Virus record (IMG/VR): IMGVR_UViG_3300044634_003261 | Coordinates: 1 to 25,637 of that record | Length of the DNA stretch: 25,637 bases | Reading direction: 5' to 3' (one strand) | Origin: a virus | Program-made: the position numbers and the translations under genes | In this document: piece by piece, positions 4,707-17,159 of the stretch | Position numbering within the stretch: the stretch's first letter is position 1 | Layout of the letters: each line of letters starts with the position of its first letter | Notes under the pieces: generated by a model | The model's input: only the letters and a program-made list of their open reading frames with translations | What the model was told of the DNA's origin: nothing | Database searches by the model: none

Positions 4707-5079
4707 ATGGTAGTTCTAATTTAAATTGTTCTATGTATTGACTTACCTCACGAGAAGATATTTCAAGGCTGTTTGCAACCTTAAGCAAAGTGTCTTTATT
4801 TTTTATTGCTACTTCAGCCTCTTTTTTCTTTTTAATATAAGAAATACGTTTAAATTTGCATTGCGGTATAACTCCGTGCATATAGTTAAACCAAATCTCT
4901 TTGTCTCCGAGTGCAGACCACACTCTATTGCTCGTACAGTTTATAAGAGTAGCAATTTGAGGAGAGTGCATCGAGCACCAACGCTGTACCATATAAGGTA
5001 CAAACTCGTCACTCTCCTTAATATTGCTCGTATCAGGTCCTTTAGTTTTATAAAGAACCTTATTAATATAATCGAACAT
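4684..5079 (-). CDS. clamp-loader small subunit, gp62-like
   Basis: T4 gp62 joins four gp44 ATPases to load the gp45 sliding clamp onto primer-template DNA. This 131-residue protein has the compact form seen in T4-like phages of marine hosts: an N-terminal MFDYINKV helix, the segment FVPYMVQRWCSMHSP, then KEIWFNYMHGVIPQCKFKRI, where the (M)NYxxxxVP(R/Q)xKR pattern matches T4 FNYLMAAVPRGKRYGKW. The lysine-rich IKKKKEAEV and a C-terminal helical half follow. Its start overlaps the stop of the DUF366-like gene by one base, and its end overlaps the co-chaperonin start by 23 bases. The gp44 and gp45 genes are not in the window. Confidence 0.68.
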   Translation of the reverse strand: MFDYINKVLYKTKGPDTSNIKESDEFVPYMVQRWCSMHSPQIATLINCTSNRVWSALGDKEIWFNYMHGVIPQCKFKRISYIKKKKEAEVAIKNKDTLLKVANSLEISSREVSQYIEQFKLELPYEKKTAT

Positions 5080-5660
5080 TAAACAATAACTTTAGTGGTA
5101 GCAATAAAGATATTATCTACCATGCTATAGAATCGGTCGATAACAGCTTTTTGGAATTGCTCGGTTTGTTCCGGGGTGAGATTGGTGCTATAAGCAAAAG
5201 CGGGTGCACGTTTACCAGCTGAAACATTAACCCCGGTATGACCGATAGCTACATTCTCCTTAGAGTAGGTAATGCTTACTGAGGCCTTACCTTTTTGCTG
5301 AACGATACCGCCTTGATTATGCTCGGCATATACCATAATATCATCGCCCTTCATTTCAATAGGCTTGTTAATTATCTTATGTAGAATATTAGCGATTGCA
5401 GTATTAAATAGACGCTGAAAGCAAACTGCTCCGAAGGGATCAAGGTTAGGAATCTCCCAGCAGAAATTGACCATAGAGTCGCTATAGATATAATCCTTCT
5501 CGAGTGAATCCTCAAGGTCAATAAGATTGAGAGTAACCTCCACGGGCGCAGCGAAAGAAACGATATTACCGATAGGTAGAGTACGATCCCGAAAGTACTT
5601 ATAAGCAAATCGCTTGTGAATAAAAGAGCCGTCATAGTTTTGTTGATCTTTAATAATCAT
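5079..5660 (-). CDS. DUF366-like protein
   Basis: A 193-residue soluble protein that resembles the DUF366/COG2029 family of archaea and bacteria. The opening YDGSFIHKRFAYKYF, the segment GNIVSFAAPVEV and the segment LIDLEDSLEKDYIYSDSMVNF fit the family pattern YDGSQL..HWAY, IVAFxGPxxV and MVDLEDxxxxxxIxSxDMLHF as I remember it. The family has no established function known to me. It is translationally coupled to gp62, which suggests an early or middle expression class. No membrane segment or signal is seen. The assignment is by eye and a role in nucleotide or base modification, although tempting given the Que genes here, would be speculation. Confidence 0.6.
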   Translation of the reverse strand: MIIKDQQNYDGSFIHKRFAYKYFRDRTLPIGNIVSFAAPVEVTLNLIDLEDSLEKDYIYSDSMVNFCWEIPNLDPFGAVCFQRLFNTAIANILHKIINKPIEMKGDDIMVYAEHNQGGIVQQKGKASVSITYSKENVAIGHTGVNVSAGKRAPAFAYSTNLTPEQTEQFQKAVIDRFYSMVDNIFIATTKVIV

Positions 5661-6666: not shown

Positions 6667-7002
6667 CTACTTATTATTTAAAAGCTGTATAACAACCCCT
6701 GTCACACTAGTAATAAGCGCTACCCAAACAGCTGTTTTAAACTGCCAGGATAGTCTATCTTTTTCTAAATGAGCTACCCGGCAAACGTTTATGCTGCTTC
6801 TTAAATTTTCTAATTCTTTTGAAAACTCTAATTCAAAATGAGCAAGTTCATTACCTAATGTAGCCGTTTGCTGCATTAAACTAGGCTGTCCATTACCATC
6901 TCGAATAAGTTTACTTAAATTTTGTAACTCACTCTTAATGTTGACTATATCTCGATTGATATAATCAATTGCAGTGTTTCTTTCTGTGGGGGTACGAGCC
7001 AT
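6667..7002 (-). CDS. coiled-coil protein with C-terminal membrane anchor, XhlA-like
   Basis: A 111-residue protein. Residues 10-85 are a heptad-rich coiled coil (IVNIKSELQNLSKLI, LGNELAHFELEFSKELENL), followed by a charged WQFK turn and a single hydrophobic segment at about 90-107 (TAVWVALITSVTGVVIQLL) ending in NNK. Coiled coil then tail anchor is the architecture of XhlA-type lysis accessory proteins and of some spanins or holins, so a role in lysis or in anchoring at the inner membrane is plausible. It has no lipobox or N-terminal signal. A late-promoter-like TATAAGTA sits 5 bases upstream, which fits a late lysis gene. No sequence-family match is claimed. Confidence 0.72.
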   Translation of the reverse strand: MARTPTERNTAIDYINRDIVNIKSELQNLSKLIRDGNGQPSLMQQTATLGNELAHFELEFSKELENLRSSINVCRVAHLEKDRLSWQFKTAVWVALITSVTGVVIQLLNNK

Positions 7003-7667: not shown

Positions 7668-8387
7668 TTAAAGGTATGTAAGTTCTTTGCAGTTATACTT
7701 TGACCACGGTATATCTTTGGAGTATCCAATAGGATCAATGGTCTTATTGTCGATAAAGGCCTTGATACGAGCTGAACACGATACACATTCTCCGCATGCA
7801 GGATCAGTACCTTCATAACAGGTATGAGTCTGTCTAAAGTCTACTTGTAAATCGATACCTTTCTTGACGACAAGGTCCTTAGAGTAAGACATAAACGGAG
7901 CATTAACCTTAATCGTGTTCTTACGATTTAAATTATAAACATCGTTTACCTTATTCAGAAAAAGAGACGTAGTATCCCAATAACCGGAGAAGTCGTCAGT
8001 TTGTACCGCGCCGTAGTGTAGGTCGCTTGCACCGATGCTTTCAGCCCAACCAGCAGCTGTCGTAAGTAGTAATAGGTTTCTGAAAGGAACATAACTTAAA
8101 GGCTGGGCGTTGCCGATATCATCTCGGGCTTTTGGAATAGCAAGGTTAGTGTTAGTTAAAGCAGACATTGTAGAGATCTCTCTAAAGAAATCCATATTAA
8201 TGATCTTATGTTCTTTTACGTTGCAAGCTTTAGATTGATACTTAGCACATTCAATTTCTCTTATAATACGCTGTCCATAGTTAAAAGTGATAGCGTAAAC
8301 CTCGTCATATTTAAGTTCTTTTGTAACATAATGCAGTAGGATAGAGCTGTCCATACCGCCTGAAAGGATTACGAGTGCTTTTGACAT
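7668..8387 (-). CDS. queC: 7-cyano-7-deazaguanine (preQ0) synthase QueC
   Basis: QueC converts 7-carboxy-7-deazaguanine, ammonia and ATP to preQ0 in the cytoplasm. The 239-residue protein has the PP-loop SGGMDS at 9-14, the family motif YVPFRN at 99-104, and a zinc site formed by C190, C198, C201 and C204 (C...CGxCxxC). The normally well-kept stretch SGYPDCRPEF reads SGYWDTTSLF here (134-143), so the substrate pocket may be altered. The gene starts at the ATG at 8385-8387, divergent from the head-protein gene at 8447, and is followed 3 bases later by the glutamine amidotransferase. With QueD and QueE encoded near 13-14 kb, the phage carries three of the four steps from GTP to preQ0; FolE is not in the window. 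Confidence 0.9.
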   Translation of the reverse strand: MSKALVILSGGMDSSILLHYVTKELKYDEVYAITFNYGQRIIREIECAKYQSKACNVKEHKIINMDFFREISTMSALTNTNLAIPKARDDIGNAQPLSYVPFRNLLLLTTAAGWAESIGASDLHYGAVQTDDFSGYWDTTSLFLNKVNDVYNLNRKNTIKVNAPFMSYSKDLVVKKGIDLQVDFRQTHTCYEGTDPACGECVSCSARIKAFIDNKTIDPIGYSKDIPWSKYNCKELTYL

Positions 8388-8446: not shown

Positions 8447-9079
8447 ATGTCTAAGTTTGCAAATTCATTTCTAAAAACCCTTAACGAAGACGTTGAAGGT
8501 AATGCTTTCACCGCGGGACTCGCTAAAACTAAAAAAGGCAGTACGTTTAAAATAGGCAATAAAAAAATTAAAGACACTAGTAACTATGACTCTTCGGTAA
8601 AAAAAGAAGGGGACAGTAAGCTTCTCCTTGGCAAAAAAATTGCCGAAAAAAAGAAAACCATGAAAGAAGCAGCAGGAGATGAAATGGATGTCCCTAGTGC
8701 AGCAGCAATAGACGCACCTGACGACGGAGATAGTCAAGCTTGGAAGAAATCTTTAGACAAAGGTACTAACCCAGAAGACTTCGATGTAGCTGATAACCCC
8801 CAGCATGATGTTGATACTAGTGGTATTAAAGCTGCTCATGAATGGATTAAAAAATTAGTCGAGGTAGCTGAATTCGTTAACGGTACCGGCCCAGAAAGTC
8901 TTAACTCTCAAATCAATCAACTAGAATTAAAGAACTCAGTACCATTTCGTGGTGTTGTACGTCGTGAAGAGAAGCGCATTACTAAACTCGCAGAAAACCT
9001 TCGCGGATTAGCAGAAGTGCTCAAGTCTGTTGTCATTACTTCCGAAAAGAAAGTAAAAGACGCAACTAGCCCTCGCTAA
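8447..9079 (+). CDS. candidate internal head protein with capsid-targeting N-terminus
   Basis: Not recognised as a family. The first 14 residues, MSKFANSFLKTLNE, form an amphipathic helix ending in L-N-E, the pattern of T4 capsid-targeting peptides that the prohead protease gp21 cuts after (L/I)-x-E. Residues 25-85 are lysine-rich and low-complexity, 85-125 acidic and probably disordered, and 125-210 helical (HEWIKKLVEVAEFV, ITKLAENLRGLAEVLKSVV). This mix of charged, helical, protease-susceptible sequence fits an internal or scaffold-core head protein. GATAAATA lies just upstream, and a strong terminator hairpin follows at 9097 inside thyX. The 3' end overlaps the convergent thyX by 14 bases. 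The head location is inference. Confidence 0.75.
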   Translation: MSKFANSFLKTLNEDVEGNAFTAGLAKTKKGSTFKIGNKKIKDTSNYDSSVKKEGDSKLLLGKKIAEKKKTMKEAAGDEMDVPSAAAIDAPDDGDSQAWKKSLDKGTNPEDFDVADNPQHDVDTSGIKAAHEWIKKLVEVAEFVNGTGPESLNSQINQLELKNSVPFRGVVRREEKRITKLAENLRGLAEVLKSVVITSEKKVKDATSPR

Positions 9080-10772: not shown

Positions 10773-11225
10773 ATGGGCGCCTCTAAAAATAACAAGTACA
10801 TTCAAGGAATTTATAACCCAATTAACAAGTCAAAGTATATAGGTAATACGAATCCTTCATATCGTTCTTTGTTAGAGAGAAAGTTTTTTTATCATTTCGA
10901 TAACAATCCGAACGTAACAGCTTGGGCAAGTGAATCAATAGTGGTGCCGTACTACAATGATGTCGACAAAAAAGTACACAAATATTATATAGACTTAATT
11001 GCCGCTATTAAAGACAGCACTGGGGTGTCTCAAAAGTATTTAATTGAGTTAAAACCGTTTATGCAGACTCAACCCCCGGTGCAATCTAACAAGAAAAAAC
11101 AAAGCACTGTTCTGTATGAAAACTTAATGTATCATCAGAATCAGTGCAAATGGAATGCTGCAACTGAATATGCAGCTAAAAAAGGAATGAAGTTTATTGT
11201 ACTAACCGAAAAGTTTTTTGGTTAG
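10773..11225 (+). CDS. head-completion protein, T4 gp4 (gp50/65) homologue
   Basis: T4 gp4 is needed to finish DNA-filled heads before tail joining. This 150-residue protein follows it almost from end to end: SYRSLLERKFFYHFDNNPNVTAW (T4: TYRSNWEKFFFEWLDKNPEIIAW), SESIVVPYYND, HKYYIDLIAAIKD, YLIELKPFMQTQPPV (T4: FFIEIKPKKETQPPV), then CKWNAATEYAAKKGMKFIVLTE (T4: DKWKAAQSLAEKRGIKFRILTE). E35, D74 and E92-x-K94 form a TnsA-like PD-(D/E)xK nuclease arrangement, so it may trim DNA at the portal. It is a late gene on the rightward strand between two leftward blocks; only a weak AGTAATTA lies before its start. Its last four bases overlap the convergent gene. Confidence 0.92.
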   Translation: MGASKNNKYIQGIYNPINKSKYIGNTNPSYRSLLERKFFYHFDNNPNVTAWASESIVVPYYNDVDKKVHKYYIDLIAAIKDSTGVSQKYLIELKPFMQTQPPVQSNKKKQSTVLYENLMYHQNQCKWNAATEYAAKKGMKFIVLTEKFFG

Positions 11226-11929
11226 TTTTTATCAAGCTCGTCGAGCTCTGGCTCTTCTTCATCATCTCGCTTCATACCTTTGAGATAGCTTTTAACGTAG
11301 GGATCAGATTCTTGTTCTCCGTTCTCCTCATCTTCCTCGTCTTCCTCGTCTTCAGACGAAGACCTACCTTTGCGTGCAAGATAAGCATCCCGATCGCCGC
11401 GATTCATCGACATAAATTTACGAAGTCGAGCAAACTTAGCTTTCTTTTCAGCGTCAATATCAGAACCAGAAGGGTCAGCCATATCTTGTGGTTTTTCACT
11501 GGCTTCCATTTCTTTAATACCTGAAACCATCTTATTAATTTCCTCAGCATCAGTTATATAGCTTGTCTTAAGAGTAATACCCTGATCATTAAGTCCTTTA
11601 AGGTGATCAACTAAATCAGACACTGAAGCATCTGGATGTCCAGACATAAATGACTCAATTGCAGCTTGAGTTTTAAGTTCACTTGCGGACATTGACCCTA
11701 CTTCATCTGTTTCAATCGGTTCTTTAGTACTTGCTTCTACATCCCCTCCGAGCTTCTTAGCTCTCTGCATTTTAAAAAATTTATAAGTCGGTACTCCAGG
11801 GTTTTCTGCTTTCCATTTCTGGAACTCAGGATTGGGGGCACGTCCTTCATATTCTTCATTAGTAGCATCATTAGCAATGGAAGGATCGATATTCTCGACT
11901 AAGGTATTGGCAAGCTTGTTGAAGTTCAT
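11222..11929 (-). CDS. acidic candidate head/scaffold protein with capsid-targeting N-terminus
   Basis: A 235-residue protein of no recognised family. The opening MNFNKLANTLVE ends in L-V-E at residue 12, matching the T4 capsid-targeting and prohead-protease pattern. Residues about 30-60 contain NPEFQKWKAENPGVPTYKFF, then a helical middle part with further charged residues, and a C-terminal tail made largely of Glu and Asp (from about 195). Acidic, helical, low-complexity sequence is also seen in T4 prohead core proteins such as gp67 and gp68, so a scaffold-core or internal role is plausible. AGTAAGTA lies 14 bases before the ATG, overlapping the stop of the upstream kinase gene. The head role is inference. 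Confidence 0.75.
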   Translation of the reverse strand: MNFNKLANTLVENIDPSIANDATNEEYEGRAPNPEFQKWKAENPGVPTYKFFKMQRAKKLGGDVEASTKEPIETDEVGSMSASELKTQAAIESFMSGHPDASVSDLVDHLKGLNDQGITLKTSYITDAEEINKMVSGIKEMEASEKPQDMADPSGSDIDAEKKAKFARLRKFMSMNRGDRDAYLARKGRSSSEDEEDEEDEENGEQESDPYVKSYLKGMKRDDEEEPELDELDKN

Positions 11930-12636: not shown

Positions 12637-12863
12637 TATGGAGTAGACTTAGGTTCGTCCGTATCGTTATCAACGTAGTCAAGATGGGCATTCTCAGGTG
12701 GAACATATCCTACTCCCTTCATAAAAAAATCAAACTGCTCTAAAAGCTGAGATATACTCATATCTCCAGGTAGTTCAACTACGAGCTTACGCTCAGTGCC
12801 GCAATGACCTGTAAAGGCATCAGTGTACTCGTTTTCGTAGATTAATGTAATTTTTTGCTTCAT
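12636..12863 (-). CDS. hypothetical protein, 75 residues
   Basis: Not recognised. A short acidic protein with an N-terminal strand pair (KITLIYENEYTDAF, RKLVVELPGD), a helix (ISQLLEQFDFFMKGVGY) and a disordered C-terminus DYVDNDTDEPKSTP. It begins in a four-base ATGA overlap with queE and ends with a one-base overlap onto the kinase gene, so it is tightly coupled to both. Tight coupling supports a real gene that works with, or is dosed with, QueE or the kinase. Confidence 0.72.
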   Translation of the reverse strand: MKQKITLIYENEYTDAFTGHCGTERKLVVELPGDMSISQLLEQFDFFMKGVGYVPPENAHLDYVDNDTDEPKSTP

Positions 12864-13669
12864 ACTTTTAAAGCTTTATCCCAAACTTGTAAGTGCATTC
12901 TATTAGAGAATTTAAGGTTATATTTCTTACAAATATCGGCTACAGCAGGAGCAATCTTAATAAGCTCTTCTCTAGATCCACACATTGGCATAATCCAAAT
13001 CAACTCTTCTGGAAGATTAATCTCAGGGTTGTTTACAAACTTCTCATACATTTCATCCAGATCTGATTCCTGTTTAGCAACAAACTTAAAGCAAGCCTTG
13101 TGCTTAATAAGGTAGCGAATAACTTCTGGTTTAAAGCGCTTGTCTTCCGGGTCACCGTTAACAGAAAGCTTAGGAGAAGTAGTGTAGGTTACTTCGCAGC
13201 CAGTTGTTAGCCAACCTGCATCAGGTAAAATAGTACCATTAGTTTCAAAGTCTATGTATAAGGTCGGCCCGATAGGGTTATCAGAAGATGCGTTAAGTGG
13301 TTTACTATAGTCCGCAAATCCCCACCGGTCTCTAATAAAATGTACAAATTCTAAGAGATTCTTTTGCTGAATAAAAGGCTCTCCGCCAGTAAGCTTAAGA
13401 AGTGCACCCTCTTTAAGACGGTTATGATAGTCGTTCTTTTCATAGAATTGTGCAATCTCTTCAAACGTCATCTTGTTCTTCTTAGACCACGAAATATAAC
13501 TATCACAACCGAAAGGTGCGTCTGGGCTCTTAAAACCAATACAGGTAAGATTGCACATTGACAATCTCATGAACACTGAAGGATAACCGATATACTTACC
13601 TTCCCCCTCTAGGGTGTAAAATACAAAATCGTCACTCAAAAAGAGTGTTTTATTAGGATCAATAGTCAT
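12860..13669 (-). CDS. queE: 7-carboxy-7-deazaguanine synthase QueE (radical SAM), variant cysteine motif
   Basis: QueE rearranges 6-carboxy-tetrahydropterin to 7-carboxy-7-deazaguanine using a 4Fe-4S cluster and S-adenosylmethionine. Family marks are YTLEGEGKYIGYPSVFMRLS (18-37; QueE: SIQGEG..G.P..F.R), the SAM-binding TGGEP at 94-98, and the closing FSNRMHLQVW. The cluster cysteines are C39, C43 and C55 followed by Asp56, i.e. Cx3Cx11C. This differs from standard Cx3Cx2C and from the Cx14CxxC of Burkholderia QueE. The length of 269 residues is slightly above typical bacterial QueE (about 210-230). It lies 21 bases after queD and runs into the 75-residue gene through ATGA. A TATAATA stretch lies just before the ATG. 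Confidence 0.88.
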   Translation of the reverse strand: MTIDPNKTLFLSDDFVFYTLEGEGKYIGYPSVFMRLSMCNLTCIGFKSPDAPFGCDSYISWSKKNKMTFEEIAQFYEKNDYHNRLKEGALLKLTGGEPFIQQKNLLEFVHFIRDRWGFADYSKPLNASSDNPIGPTLYIDFETNGTILPDAGWLTTGCEVTYTTSPKLSVNGDPEDKRFKPEVIRYLIKHKACFKFVAKQESDLDEMYEKFVNNPEINLPEELIWIMPMCGSREELIKIAPAVADICKKYNLKFSNRMHLQVWDKALKV

Positions 13670-13690: not shown

Positions 13691-14161
13691 TTAGCTTTTC
13701 CATACATGATCCGGAGAAGTCTTCTCGTAGATCGCACTATTGCCTTCGTGTTCCCAGACTTCTACTTTCTGTACCCAGCAACGACCATAAGTTGACTCCT
13801 TAATATAATCATCGGCTACTTCAAAGCAAAAGTTTGCAAATTTCTCGATACCAACACCGTCTGCCATAATTACAAGTTCGATCATATCGCGTTTATCAAG
13901 TTCTTTAAACATATCGAGATCAGGGTCGGTACCTGAGACCACAGTCTTATGGTCGAACGTCTCTTCTAGTATATTCTTAAGCTCTTTAAGAGCTCCAAAG
14001 TCAACGACCCAGTTATTACTATCAAGCGAGCTACAGGTAAACCAGAACTTAGCTTGTAAACGATAACCGTGAATAAAACGGCAATGACTTTTAGCAAGCG
14101 GCTGTCTGAATGCACAGGAGCCGAGCGGTATAACCTTGGTAGAAACGTATCTGTTGCTCAT
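13691..14161 (-). CDS. queD: QueD-like 6-carboxy-tetrahydropterin synthase with altered zinc site
   Basis: QueD converts dihydroneopterin triphosphate to 6-carboxy-tetrahydropterin, the step before QueE. This 156-residue protein keeps the fold marks of the PTPS/QueD family: catalytic-type C27 three residues before HG (CRFIHGY, 27-33), VVDFGALK (52-59; family: VxDFxxLK), the pair D70-H71 in TFDHKTVV, and the terminal VEVWEHEG (family: VxVxET). The zinc site is unusual: the family AAH motif reads CAFRQ (16-20), so the first His is Phe18, and HGH reads HGY, so the last His is Tyr33. His26 and His31 remain. It is therefore either a divergent QueD with other ligands or an enzyme of altered chemistry. 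It is followed by queE, so pathway membership is well supported. Confidence 0.82.
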   Translation of the reverse strand: MSNRYVSTKVIPLGSCAFRQPLAKSHCRFIHGYRLQAKFWFTCSSLDSNNWVVDFGALKELKNILEETFDHKTVVSGTDPDLDMFKELDKRDMIELVIMADGVGIEKFANFCFEVADDYIKESTYGRCWVQKVEVWEHEGNSAIYEKTSPDHVWKS

Positions 14162-14550: not shown

Positions 14551-14574
14551 TATTTACTTATTTAAACATAAGTA
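14551..14574. promoter_or_regulatory. back-to-back late-promoter-like octamers
   Basis: The 34-base gap 14547-14580 between divergent genes holds AGTAAATA on the minus strand (14551-14558, 4 bases before the GTG at 14546) and CATAAGTA on the plus strand (14567-14574, 6 bases before the ATG at 14581). Having one motif per direction in so short a gap is the clearest positional support here for the motif being functional. Confidence 0.5.
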
Positions 14575-14580
14575 TAGTTA

Positions 14581-15102
14581 ATGCAATTATTAGAAAAAAG
14601 TAGATTTGATCAAAAATATAAATATATAATAGAGGCTATGGATATGCCACCACCAACCGTACATTTTAGTATGCCACCTGCATACGTACAATCTGTAGAC
14701 ACCTTTAAAGGGTATGCTCGAAGCGACGAAATGCGTCAGTTAGAGACAGTAGTTGCATGTTTAGTGTTAGAAGCAGGCGGGGAAGGGACAGTAGGGATGG
14801 AGGCTGTAAATGAAGTAATTCATAACAGATCAAAAAAGCAAAAAAAATCTCTTTATCAAATAGTAACTGCGCGTAAACAATTTTCATGCTTTAACGGGGG
14901 GGTATATGCAGCTGTACAACAAGCAAAAAAACATCCTAAGTGGACTGAAGCAACTCGTATACTTAGAAATGAATTAACTAACCATACGAGAGGCGCAGAT
15001 CACTATCACACTCTTTCAGTACGGCCGTCCTGGGGTAAAGAACTATTAAAGCGTGGTGCAAAAACAATAACGATTAAGCACCATATATTTTACCACTTTT
15101 AA
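14581..15102 (+). CDS. SleB-type cell wall hydrolase with capsid-targeting-like N-terminus
   Basis: A 173-residue peptidoglycan hydrolase of the SleB / Hydrolase_2 family (lytic-transglycosylase-like). The catalytic domain spans about 50-173: LVLEAGGEG with the catalytic Glu64, VNEVIHNRSKK (77-87), QFSCFNGG (100-107), WTEATRILRNEL, and GADHYHT near the end. These match SleB signatures (A.tIyaEArGEp, VA.vilNRv, QFsc..). There is no secretion signal or membrane segment. The N-terminus is instead MQLLEKSRFDQKYKYIIEA, with I-I-E at 16-18 followed by Ala, which fits prohead-protease cleavage, and then a Pro-rich linker. It could be an endolysin needing a holin, or an enzyme carried inside the virion. 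CATAAGTA 6 bases upstream supports late expression. Confidence 0.85.
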   Translation: MQLLEKSRFDQKYKYIIEAMDMPPPTVHFSMPPAYVQSVDTFKGYARSDEMRQLETVVACLVLEAGGEGTVGMEAVNEVIHNRSKKQKKSLYQIVTARKQFSCFNGGVYAAVQQAKKHPKWTEATRILRNELTNHTRGADHYHTLSVRPSWGKELLKRGAKTITIKHHIFYHF

Positions 15103-15459
15103 TTAACTCTCTACTTCTGTTTGAGCAGGATTAATTCTATCAACTATATCGGTAAGCTGTTGCTGTTTTTCTAAAGCGTTTTGAATTGTTACCTTGTCGT
15201 TGAACACAGACTTGTCAGCTGCATCTAAAGAGTCGGGAGAAATAACTAACGCTCTTTGTACTAAGTCTATAAGATTTCTTAATCCTTCTGACGAGACCGG
15301 TTTGGGTACTTCTACTGGAGCAGCGGGGGCAGGAGCGGCTGGGGCTGGGGCTGCGTCAGGGGGAGGATTACCGCCGGTTTGATCTAAACCCGGAGTGGGG
15401 GGTGCTTCAGACAAAATCTTAGTGTATACCTCGTTAACTAGTGTATCAAATTTTTTCAT
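15103..15459 (-). CDS. small candidate head protein, Pro/Ala-rich, with capsid-targeting N-terminus
   Basis: A 118-residue protein with no recognised family. The N-terminus MKKFDTLVNEVYTKILSE is an amphipathic helix ending in L-S-E at 16-18 followed by Ala, close in style to the T4 peptide MKTYQEFIAE. Residues 19-55 are rich in Pro and Ala (repeated APAAP), and 57-118 are helical (LRNLIDLVQRAL, VTIQNALEKQQQLTDIV). After cleavage a Pro/Ala arm plus helices would remain, as expected of a small internal or decoration protein. It begins in a four-base overlap with the preceding 97-residue gene and is convergent with SleB, with adjacent stops. Confidence 0.72.
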   Translation of the reverse strand: MKKFDTLVNEVYTKILSEAPPTPGLDQTGGNPPPDAAPAPAAPAPAAPVEVPKPVSSEGLRNLIDLVQRALVISPDSLDAADKSVFNDKVTIQNALEKQQQLTDIVDRINPAQTEVES

Positions 15460-15749
15460 GAGGCTTTACCTGCTATAATAGCTTTTAATTGATTAATTTC
15501 TGCTTCTTGAGCTGGTTGACTGTTTTTATTAGCAGCTCGCGTGGTCATTATAGCGGTTAATTTTGCTTGAGCCGCTTTTTTATTAGCATCAAGTACTTTC
15601 GGATCTACGGCTTGGGTTTGAGTCGGCCGGGTGCCTGGATTAGCACCAGACATAGTAGCTGTTGTAGGCTGACCACTTAAATTCGTATACTCTTCAGCAA
15701 TTCTTAAAAACTTGCTATTAGCTTTAACTTTTTCGTAAATAGGATCCAT
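15456..15749 (-). CDS. small candidate head protein with capsid-targeting N-terminus
   Basis: A 97-residue protein of no known family. The N-terminus MDPIYEKVKANSKFLRIAE ends in I-A-E at 17-19. A Thr/Gly/Pro-rich middle follows (TNLSGQPTTATMSGANPG), then two alanine-rich helices (LDANKKAAQAKLTAIM and EAEINQLKAIIAG). No membrane segment is present. AGTAAATA lies 7 bases upstream, and a further perfect TATAAATA lies about 200 bases upstream. It is coupled by ATGA to the next leftward gene, another candidate of the same type. Confidence 0.7.
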   Translation of the reverse strand: MDPIYEKVKANSKFLRIAEEYTNLSGQPTTATMSGANPGTRPTQTQAVDPKVLDANKKAAQAKLTAIMTTRAANKNSQPAQEAEINQLKAIIAGKAS

Positions 15750-16904: not shown

Positions 16905-16912
16905 TACTTATT
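16905..16912 (-). promoter_or_regulatory. late-promoter-like octamer AATAAGTA
   Basis: AATAAGTA on the minus strand ends 6 bases before the ATG of the GIY-YIG gene and touches the stop codon of the upstream small head-protein gene. Same degenerate form as the other sites; function inferred. Confidence 0.4.
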
Positions 16913-17159
16913 ACATGCCTGGAGGTGTTCTACGGATAACCTTACCCTTTTTAAAACCTGGTGGTTTAAACTTAGATCCAGGAGGGGTAAACTTGTTTTT
17001 TTGTTTAGAGCCAAATAAGTTCCGGGCATCTCCTGGAGCGTAAAAGTCCCCACTTTGCCCTATCTGAAAAGCATGAGCTTGACCTGCACCAAAAGCACCT
17101 GCAGAAGTGTTACCCATATCTTCAAGTAAAGCGAGTATTCTTTTATCAAAATTTTTCAT
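16911..17159 (-). CDS. small Gly/Pro-rich candidate head protein with capsid-targeting N-terminus
   Basis: An 82-residue protein of no recognised family. MKNFDKRILALLE is an amphipathic helix ending in L-L-E at 11-13, closely like the T4 capsid-targeting peptide MKTYQEFIAE. The middle (NTSAGAFGAGQAHAFQIG) is Gly/Ala-rich, then SGDFYAPGDARN, and the basic C-terminus carries three PPG units (FTPPGSKF, FKPPGFKKGK, RTPPGM). A small basic Pro/Gly-rich tail suits DNA or capsid binding inside the head. CGTAAGTA lies 25 bases upstream. The gene is divergent from uvsY. Confidence 0.7.
   Translation of the reverse strand: MKNFDKRILALLEDMGNTSAGAFGAGQAHAFQIGQSGDFYAPGDARNLFGSKQKNKFTPPGSKFKPPGFKKGKVIRRTPPGM

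Follow-up and report, generated by a model that had tools for sequence, protein, structure and literature searches.

The head of bacteriophage T4 can be reached by proteins that carry a very short N-terminal tag. PMC9026906 describes a 10-residue propeptide that directs a protein to the T4 head, cleavage by the gp21 protease after L/I-x-E, and internal proteins that end up in the cytoplasm, and PMC5694885 gives CTS propeptides as short, at 10–20 residues. The internal-protein leaders in NC_000866 end ITE↓A, IAE↓A and IAE↓A (the arrow marks the cut). The idea that a hydrolase may be carried in the head is not new: precedents are T7 gp16 (PMC8954989) and the PF07486 domain of polyvalent proteins, which is postulated to help breach the wall at entry (PMC5512222). 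A literature search, with most subscription journals outside its scope, returned no report of a SleB or an endolysin targeted to the capsid of a T4-like phage. Here, we analyse a SleB-type gene whose product begins with a leader resembling those of the T4 internal proteins.

A SleB-type hydrolase in a T4-like phage

The gene lies in a 25.6-kb virus record, hereafter the window (the whole stretch of DNA that was analysed), which is a fragment of its genome. Its gene content identifies the phage as T4-like. The window encodes a T4 gp15-type tail sheath stabiliser and is syntenic with a 51-kb record, G003, whose SleB is 75% identical. G003 carries a T4-type (S77) prohead protease and gp23, together with a gp22-like scaffold called from position and sequence. 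Its gp23 has LNE↓A at residues 58–61, the likely processing site, next to the weaker LLE↓N. Judged by gp23, the closest isolates are distant, at 31–34% among the matches listed, and are mostly cyanophages. Of 18 close-group records, 6 yielded S77 and gp23, as against none of the 30 records of a second set (27 Sec-type and three short close-group fragments); the records surveyed are fragments, so that single absences count little.

Two side observations concern the wider gene content. Window positions 5079–5660, 7668–8387, 12860–13669 and 13691–14161 hold DUF366 and QueC-, QueE- and QueD-like genes (the Que assignments by eye), and a relative, the 140-kb T4-like record G009, encodes QueF and the GTP cyclohydrolase FolE2; taken together, these genes probably serve 7-deazaguanine DNA modification. 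G009 also has CsgG and CsgF, four proteins that match Trp_halogenase and several 2OG-FeII oxygenases.

The features of the SleB gene are the following:

14581–15102, + strand: SleB/Hydrolase_2 peptidoglycan hydrolase gene, 173 aa, ATG start
14581–14634, + strand: leader, residues 1–18 (MQLLEKSRFDQKYKYIIE), in a predicted detached helix (3–20), with a putative prohead-protease cut at E18↓A19
14635–14718, + strand: Pro-rich linker, residues 19–46, predicted disordered
14779–15093, + strand: catalytic domain, Pfam match over residues 67–171, with E64 just upstream

By sequence and predicted fold, the product is a SleB-type peptidoglycan hydrolase, with cleavage activity as a prediction. Hydrolase_2 (PF07486) matches residues 67–171 in Pfam with an E-value of 8.4e-14 and a score of 52.5 bits (cut-off 27), and PHROG 938, annotated 'endolysin', matches the ORF at 1.3e-17, with PHROG 15649, also 'endolysin', among the further matches. 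An AlphaFold model built from 12 aligned phage sequences is confident over the catalytic domain from about residue 50, and the top two Foldseek matches to it are the SleB structures 4fet and 4f55 (probability 1.00; E-values 7.7e-3 and 2.1e-2). A profile of the 12 SleB relatives matched no solved structure at E ≤0.001, only weakly at E ≤10. E64 is invariant in all 12 aligned sequences and pairs, in a weak match, with the YGESRGE glutamate of the solved SleB enzyme, which we take to be the catalytic residue. Scanning bacterial genomes with SleB returned at least 80 loci at no more than 41% identity, mostly aligned over the catalytic domain alone, which makes them uninformative on the leader.

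Two codons before the SleB ATG, the identical record L002 has a stop codon, which excludes a longer start, and the MQ start is kept in most relatives. An internal start at M20 or M22, served by the SD-like word AGAGG, was considered and rejected: M22 is not conserved, and SD-like words are not commoner than in shuffled sequence, preceding 2 of 25 ATG genes in the window, 2 of 50 in G003, 4 of 121 in G009 and 13 of 206 in G016.

A leader without export signal

A first-pass annotation of this DNA had described an enzyme that lacks a signal sequence and starts with a leader ending I-I-E, followed by Ala and a Pro-rich linker. Both parts of this description are borne out. Residues 16–19 read I-I-E-A and run into a Pro-rich stretch; in the AlphaFold model, helix 3–20 has low confidence, and segment 22–46 of the linker has a pLDDT below 50 and is disordered. 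No hydrophobic signal was detected: the best 15-residue hydropathy within the first 40 residues is 0.34, whereas two Sec-type homologues reach 2.27 and 2.62. The same measure rules out a signal peptide or SAR domain, both of which had been considered as candidates for this N-terminus.

With 18 residues and an IIE↓A end, the leader has the length and terminus of a T4-type CTS propeptide (10–20 residues, L/I-x-E), and the Ala after it agrees with the small residue found there in the T4 examples. T4 IPIII has its aromatic targeting residues at positions 4 and 7, whereas the F and Y of the SleB leader stand at 9 and 13, and for this reason the window SleB is not filed as a T4-type CTS member, only as a protein that may work like one.

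Neighbours with similar leaders

Several other proteins of the window begin in a comparable way:

15103–15459, − strand: convergent neighbour, putative head protein, with leader MKKFDTLVNEVYTKILSE↓A followed by a Pro/Ala-rich stretch
15456–15749, − strand: small neighbour with weaker leader likeness, N-terminus ...KFLRIAEE
16911–17159, − strand: 82-aa protein, with leader MKNFDKRILALLE↓D and, behind it, a segment resembling the mature gp23 N-terminus
8447–9079, + strand: leader-type protein of 210 aa and no known family, MSKFANSFLKTLNE↓D
11222–11929, − strand: leader-type protein of 235 aa and no known family, MNFNKLANTLVE↓N

SleB has a small convergent neighbour of the type MKKFD...ILSE↓APP in the window, as it does in those group A loci that extend far enough downstream to show it. 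The group B loci L019, L022, L023 and L024 have a similar short neighbour on the opposite strand (ILE↓G, LLE↓G, LAE↓A, LTE↓A), and nearly every SleB locus examined has a convergent small leader-type neighbour. The 82-aa protein aligns with G003 gp23 from gp23 residue 58 onwards (14 of 35 positions identical, E-value 2e-05 in a single BLASTP comparison), and the likeness begins at the predicted gp23 cut (GDFYAPGDAR versus SDFYASGDAR), which connects the window's LxE leaders with a gp23-type processing site. This protein is possibly a duplicate or mimic of the gp23 N-arm. As a separate observation, several adjacent genes of G009 (32470–36472, locus L100) begin like MR[NDS].YKVL.EAY..V.E, an unnamed family with a common leader of its own.

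How far the leader is conserved

The putative site varies among the relatives, reading LLE↓A or ILE↓A (L003–L006), LNE↓A (L012, L013), LKE↓A (L017), IDE↓A (L132), MSE↓A (L140), LME↓V (L015, L016) and IKE↓V (L007–L010); [LIM]xE[AGSV] is missing from the leaders of L139 and L141. A codon listing shows E-A retained across several otherwise unlike leaders. When one sequence was taken per divergent leader type, [LIM]xE[AGSV] occurred within residues 5–24 in seven of nine types against a shuffled mean of 0.41, and the strict [LI]xE[AGS] in four of nine against 0.22; since the types share ancestry and the looser pattern was chosen with the sequences already in view, these counts measure conservation rather than independent events.

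A single [LI]xEA motif is weak, because 1.27% of internal 20-residue windows carry one. Over the 820 predicted proteins of nine records of the phage group, 32 have it within residues 5–24, a 3.07-fold enrichment, and for [LI]xE[AGS] the N-terminal enrichment is 1.78. Replacing E brings the ratio to 0.54 (D with A), 1.16 (K with A), 1.16 (Q with AGS) or 1.02 (R with AGS). The near-miss [LI]xxE[AGS] is likewise enriched at N-termini, 2.0-fold, which means that part of the signal may come from N-terminal helix composition. It could then be argued that the leader likeness reflects chance or such composition and has no targeting role, as the motif is short and two leader types lack it. This explanation is very improbable in view of the E-specific enrichment, the E-A kept across different leaders and the ranking of SleB by a held-out profile. 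The profile spans nine positions and was trained solely on the neighbouring leader-type proteins, which were removed from each ranking. SleB came 1st of 34 proteins in the window, 1st of 60 in G003, 2nd of 41 in G011 and 8th of 168 in G009, and in the distant relatives 13th of 51 (G012) and 23rd of 55 (G006). Judged by sequence, the leader likeness is thus strong within the clade of the window but weakens beyond it. The earlier claim that the SleB leader is like those of the candidate head proteins stands for the window and its closest relative G003, where SleB ranks first, but the likeness is weaker in G012 and G006, and two of nine leader types lack the motif.

Expression and the endolysin question

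One further element precedes the gene:

14568–14574, + strand: ATAAGTA element just upstream of the SleB start, a possible late-promoter variant

ATAAGTA lies close upstream of SleB in all six group A records examined. Within 45 bases of a start codon, it precedes five genes in the window (0.27 expected) and five in G003 (0.28 expected). In G003, the gp15-type gene and that of the gp22-like scaffold have it close upstream as well. The T4 late-promoter word TATAAATA is absent from the 45 bases upstream of all 38 window ORFs. The position of ATAAGTA before SleB suggests late expression, which fits packaging and lysis alike.

An alternative explanation is that SleB is an ordinary late endolysin, cytoplasmic and reaching the wall via a holin, with an N-terminal helix that has another role (membrane contact, or inhibition until release) or none. 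The two PHROG families that match it are called 'endolysin', and its leader degenerates in some relatives. Phage_lysozyme and Amidase_2 were not found in any of 10 records, and in G009, where 157 of 170 ORFs were compared with Pfam, Hydrolase_2 is the sole peptidoglycan hydrolase among the matches listed, which for one part of these ORFs are the 25 best of 37 families by E-value. Either SleB is therefore the endolysin, or the endolysin of this lineage escapes these models. The window offers one holin-like candidate:

6667–7002, − strand: small protein, hydrophobic in a single C-terminal segment; the sole holin-like candidate noticed in the window

It has no family match above cut-off and lies about 7.6 kb from SleB, with which it shares the ATAAGTA word; it could be a holin. 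What an ordinary endolysin leaves unexplained is why SleB should share a leader class with its neighbours and match the prohead-protease motif, and why it should lack the Sec peptide that other phage SleBs have. On balance, we consider this explanation unlikely, though it is the chief competitor to packaging. The first-pass annotation had named absence from virions, coupled with SleB being the only endolysin, as the outcome that counts against packaging; the second half of this pair is what G009 points to, no second endolysin being among the matches listed for its 157 of 170 ORFs.

A division of labour would reconcile these data, with part of the SleB pool packaged and acting at entry and the rest remaining cytoplasmic as the endolysin. 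This would join the leader evidence with the position of SleB as the only hydrolase among the matches listed for G009, but both pools have to be supposed; it is less economical, and we regard it as improbable.

SleB homologues with other front ends

The same catalytic family occurs behind quite different N-termini. The SleB loci L025–L069 have Sec-type signal peptides, as judged by eye, with the exception of L051, and most additional homologue loci likewise have a Sec-type start by eye. The sister clade L018–L022 begins M.FS.YY.LDE↓S and continues with a weakly hydrophobic stretch, which was noted for L018–L024. In L018–L022, a cut at LDE↓S would leave the N-terminus S[LF]KTKLKALGLAGLAALTPY.KA, which is Sec-signal-like. 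Aromatic starts of this type are enriched in G016–G018, at 10 of 456 N-termini against 14 of 5253 internal windows, with a pattern chosen afterwards. A T7-like head-tail connector, sought in order to place the Sec-type group, was found in none of 37 records, a result without weight since no control matched either. Comparison of five proteins from L027, a Sec-type locus, with PHROGs gave one match to a terminase family and one to a DnaB-like helicase, neither of which identifies the group.

A model for head packaging

Altogether, the leader, its neighbours and the T4-type head genes of G003 lead to a model in which SleB is packaged in the head as its main role, to which we give a probability of about 0.48. 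Packaging in any form, alone or combined with a role in lysis, is somewhat better than an even proposition. SleB would enter the prohead via a T4-style capsid-targeting propeptide, and the T4-type protease gp21 would cut it after E18 (IIE↓A) as the prohead matures. The mature protein of about 155 residues would then remain within the DNA-filled head and exit through the tail together with the DNA. Once ejected, it would most likely open the peptidoglycan at the entry site; we infer each of these steps, from targeting to site of action, from the features described above. The entry site is favoured because the hub-like protein of the relative G009 matches an OB domain alone and shows no lysozyme domain. 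Against this site, the T4 internal proteins end up in the cytoplasm, from which a hydrolase lacking an export signal could not reach the wall. The proposal of the first-pass annotation that SleB may ride in the capsid is therefore retained in a reduced form: the leader likeness and the prohead protease of G003 speak for it, while packaging is only plausible and the leader degrades in the distant members.

A broader scenario, which we regard as doubtful, is that, in a T4-like lineage, the head has taken over from the tail spike as the carrier of the entry hydrolase. SleB would then be an internal protein, processed by the prohead protease and ejected, that replaces the missing lysozyme domain of the hub. 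In L018–L022, the LDE↓S cut would expose the Sec-like N-terminus, and the newly infected host could then export the injected enzyme to the periplasm.

If head packaging is correct, a T4-type phage with a long tail carries a wall hydrolase in its head and delivers it from there. Such a route has been described in T7, whose tail is short, and is postulated for the giant polyvalent proteins; here it would rely on a simple cleavable tag. One enzyme family would be redirected by a swap of its N-terminus, between a Sec peptide and a prohead-protease leader. The leader profile would also provide a means to list more head-packaged cargo in uncultured T4-like phages.

Comparison with known systems

The nearest parallel is offered by the T4 internal proteins IPI, IPII and IPIII, which, like SleB, have a short N-terminal propeptide ending [LI]xE↓A and are small cargo. 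The S77 protease of T4 type is also present in the window's phage group, and the leader of the L140 SleB (SFKEYYISTIMSE↓A) resembles that of T4 IPI (TFKEF...STITE↓A). The two differ in their cargo, which is anti-restriction in T4 and a peptidoglycan hydrolase, with putative packaging, in the window. The phage SleB endolysins of Vequintavirus FV3 and phage Eos share the catalytic family and a similar size with the window SleB, but have a Sec-type signal peptide (by eye) that the window enzyme lacks. The DarB-like or polyvalent proteins of the rhizobial phages POI1126, Atu_ph08 and PBC5, annotated as antirestriction proteins, contain a SleB domain as the window enzyme does, located N-terminally in POI1126 and Atu_ph08. 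These are giant multidomain proteins in which no short cleavable leader was recognised, whereas the window SleB has 173 aa and one domain. T7 gp16 (PMC8954989) is a head-borne hydrolase for DNA entry, as proposed here for SleB, yet it is a 1318-residue core protein of a short-tailed phage with a transglycosylase domain, and its packaging route is unrelated.
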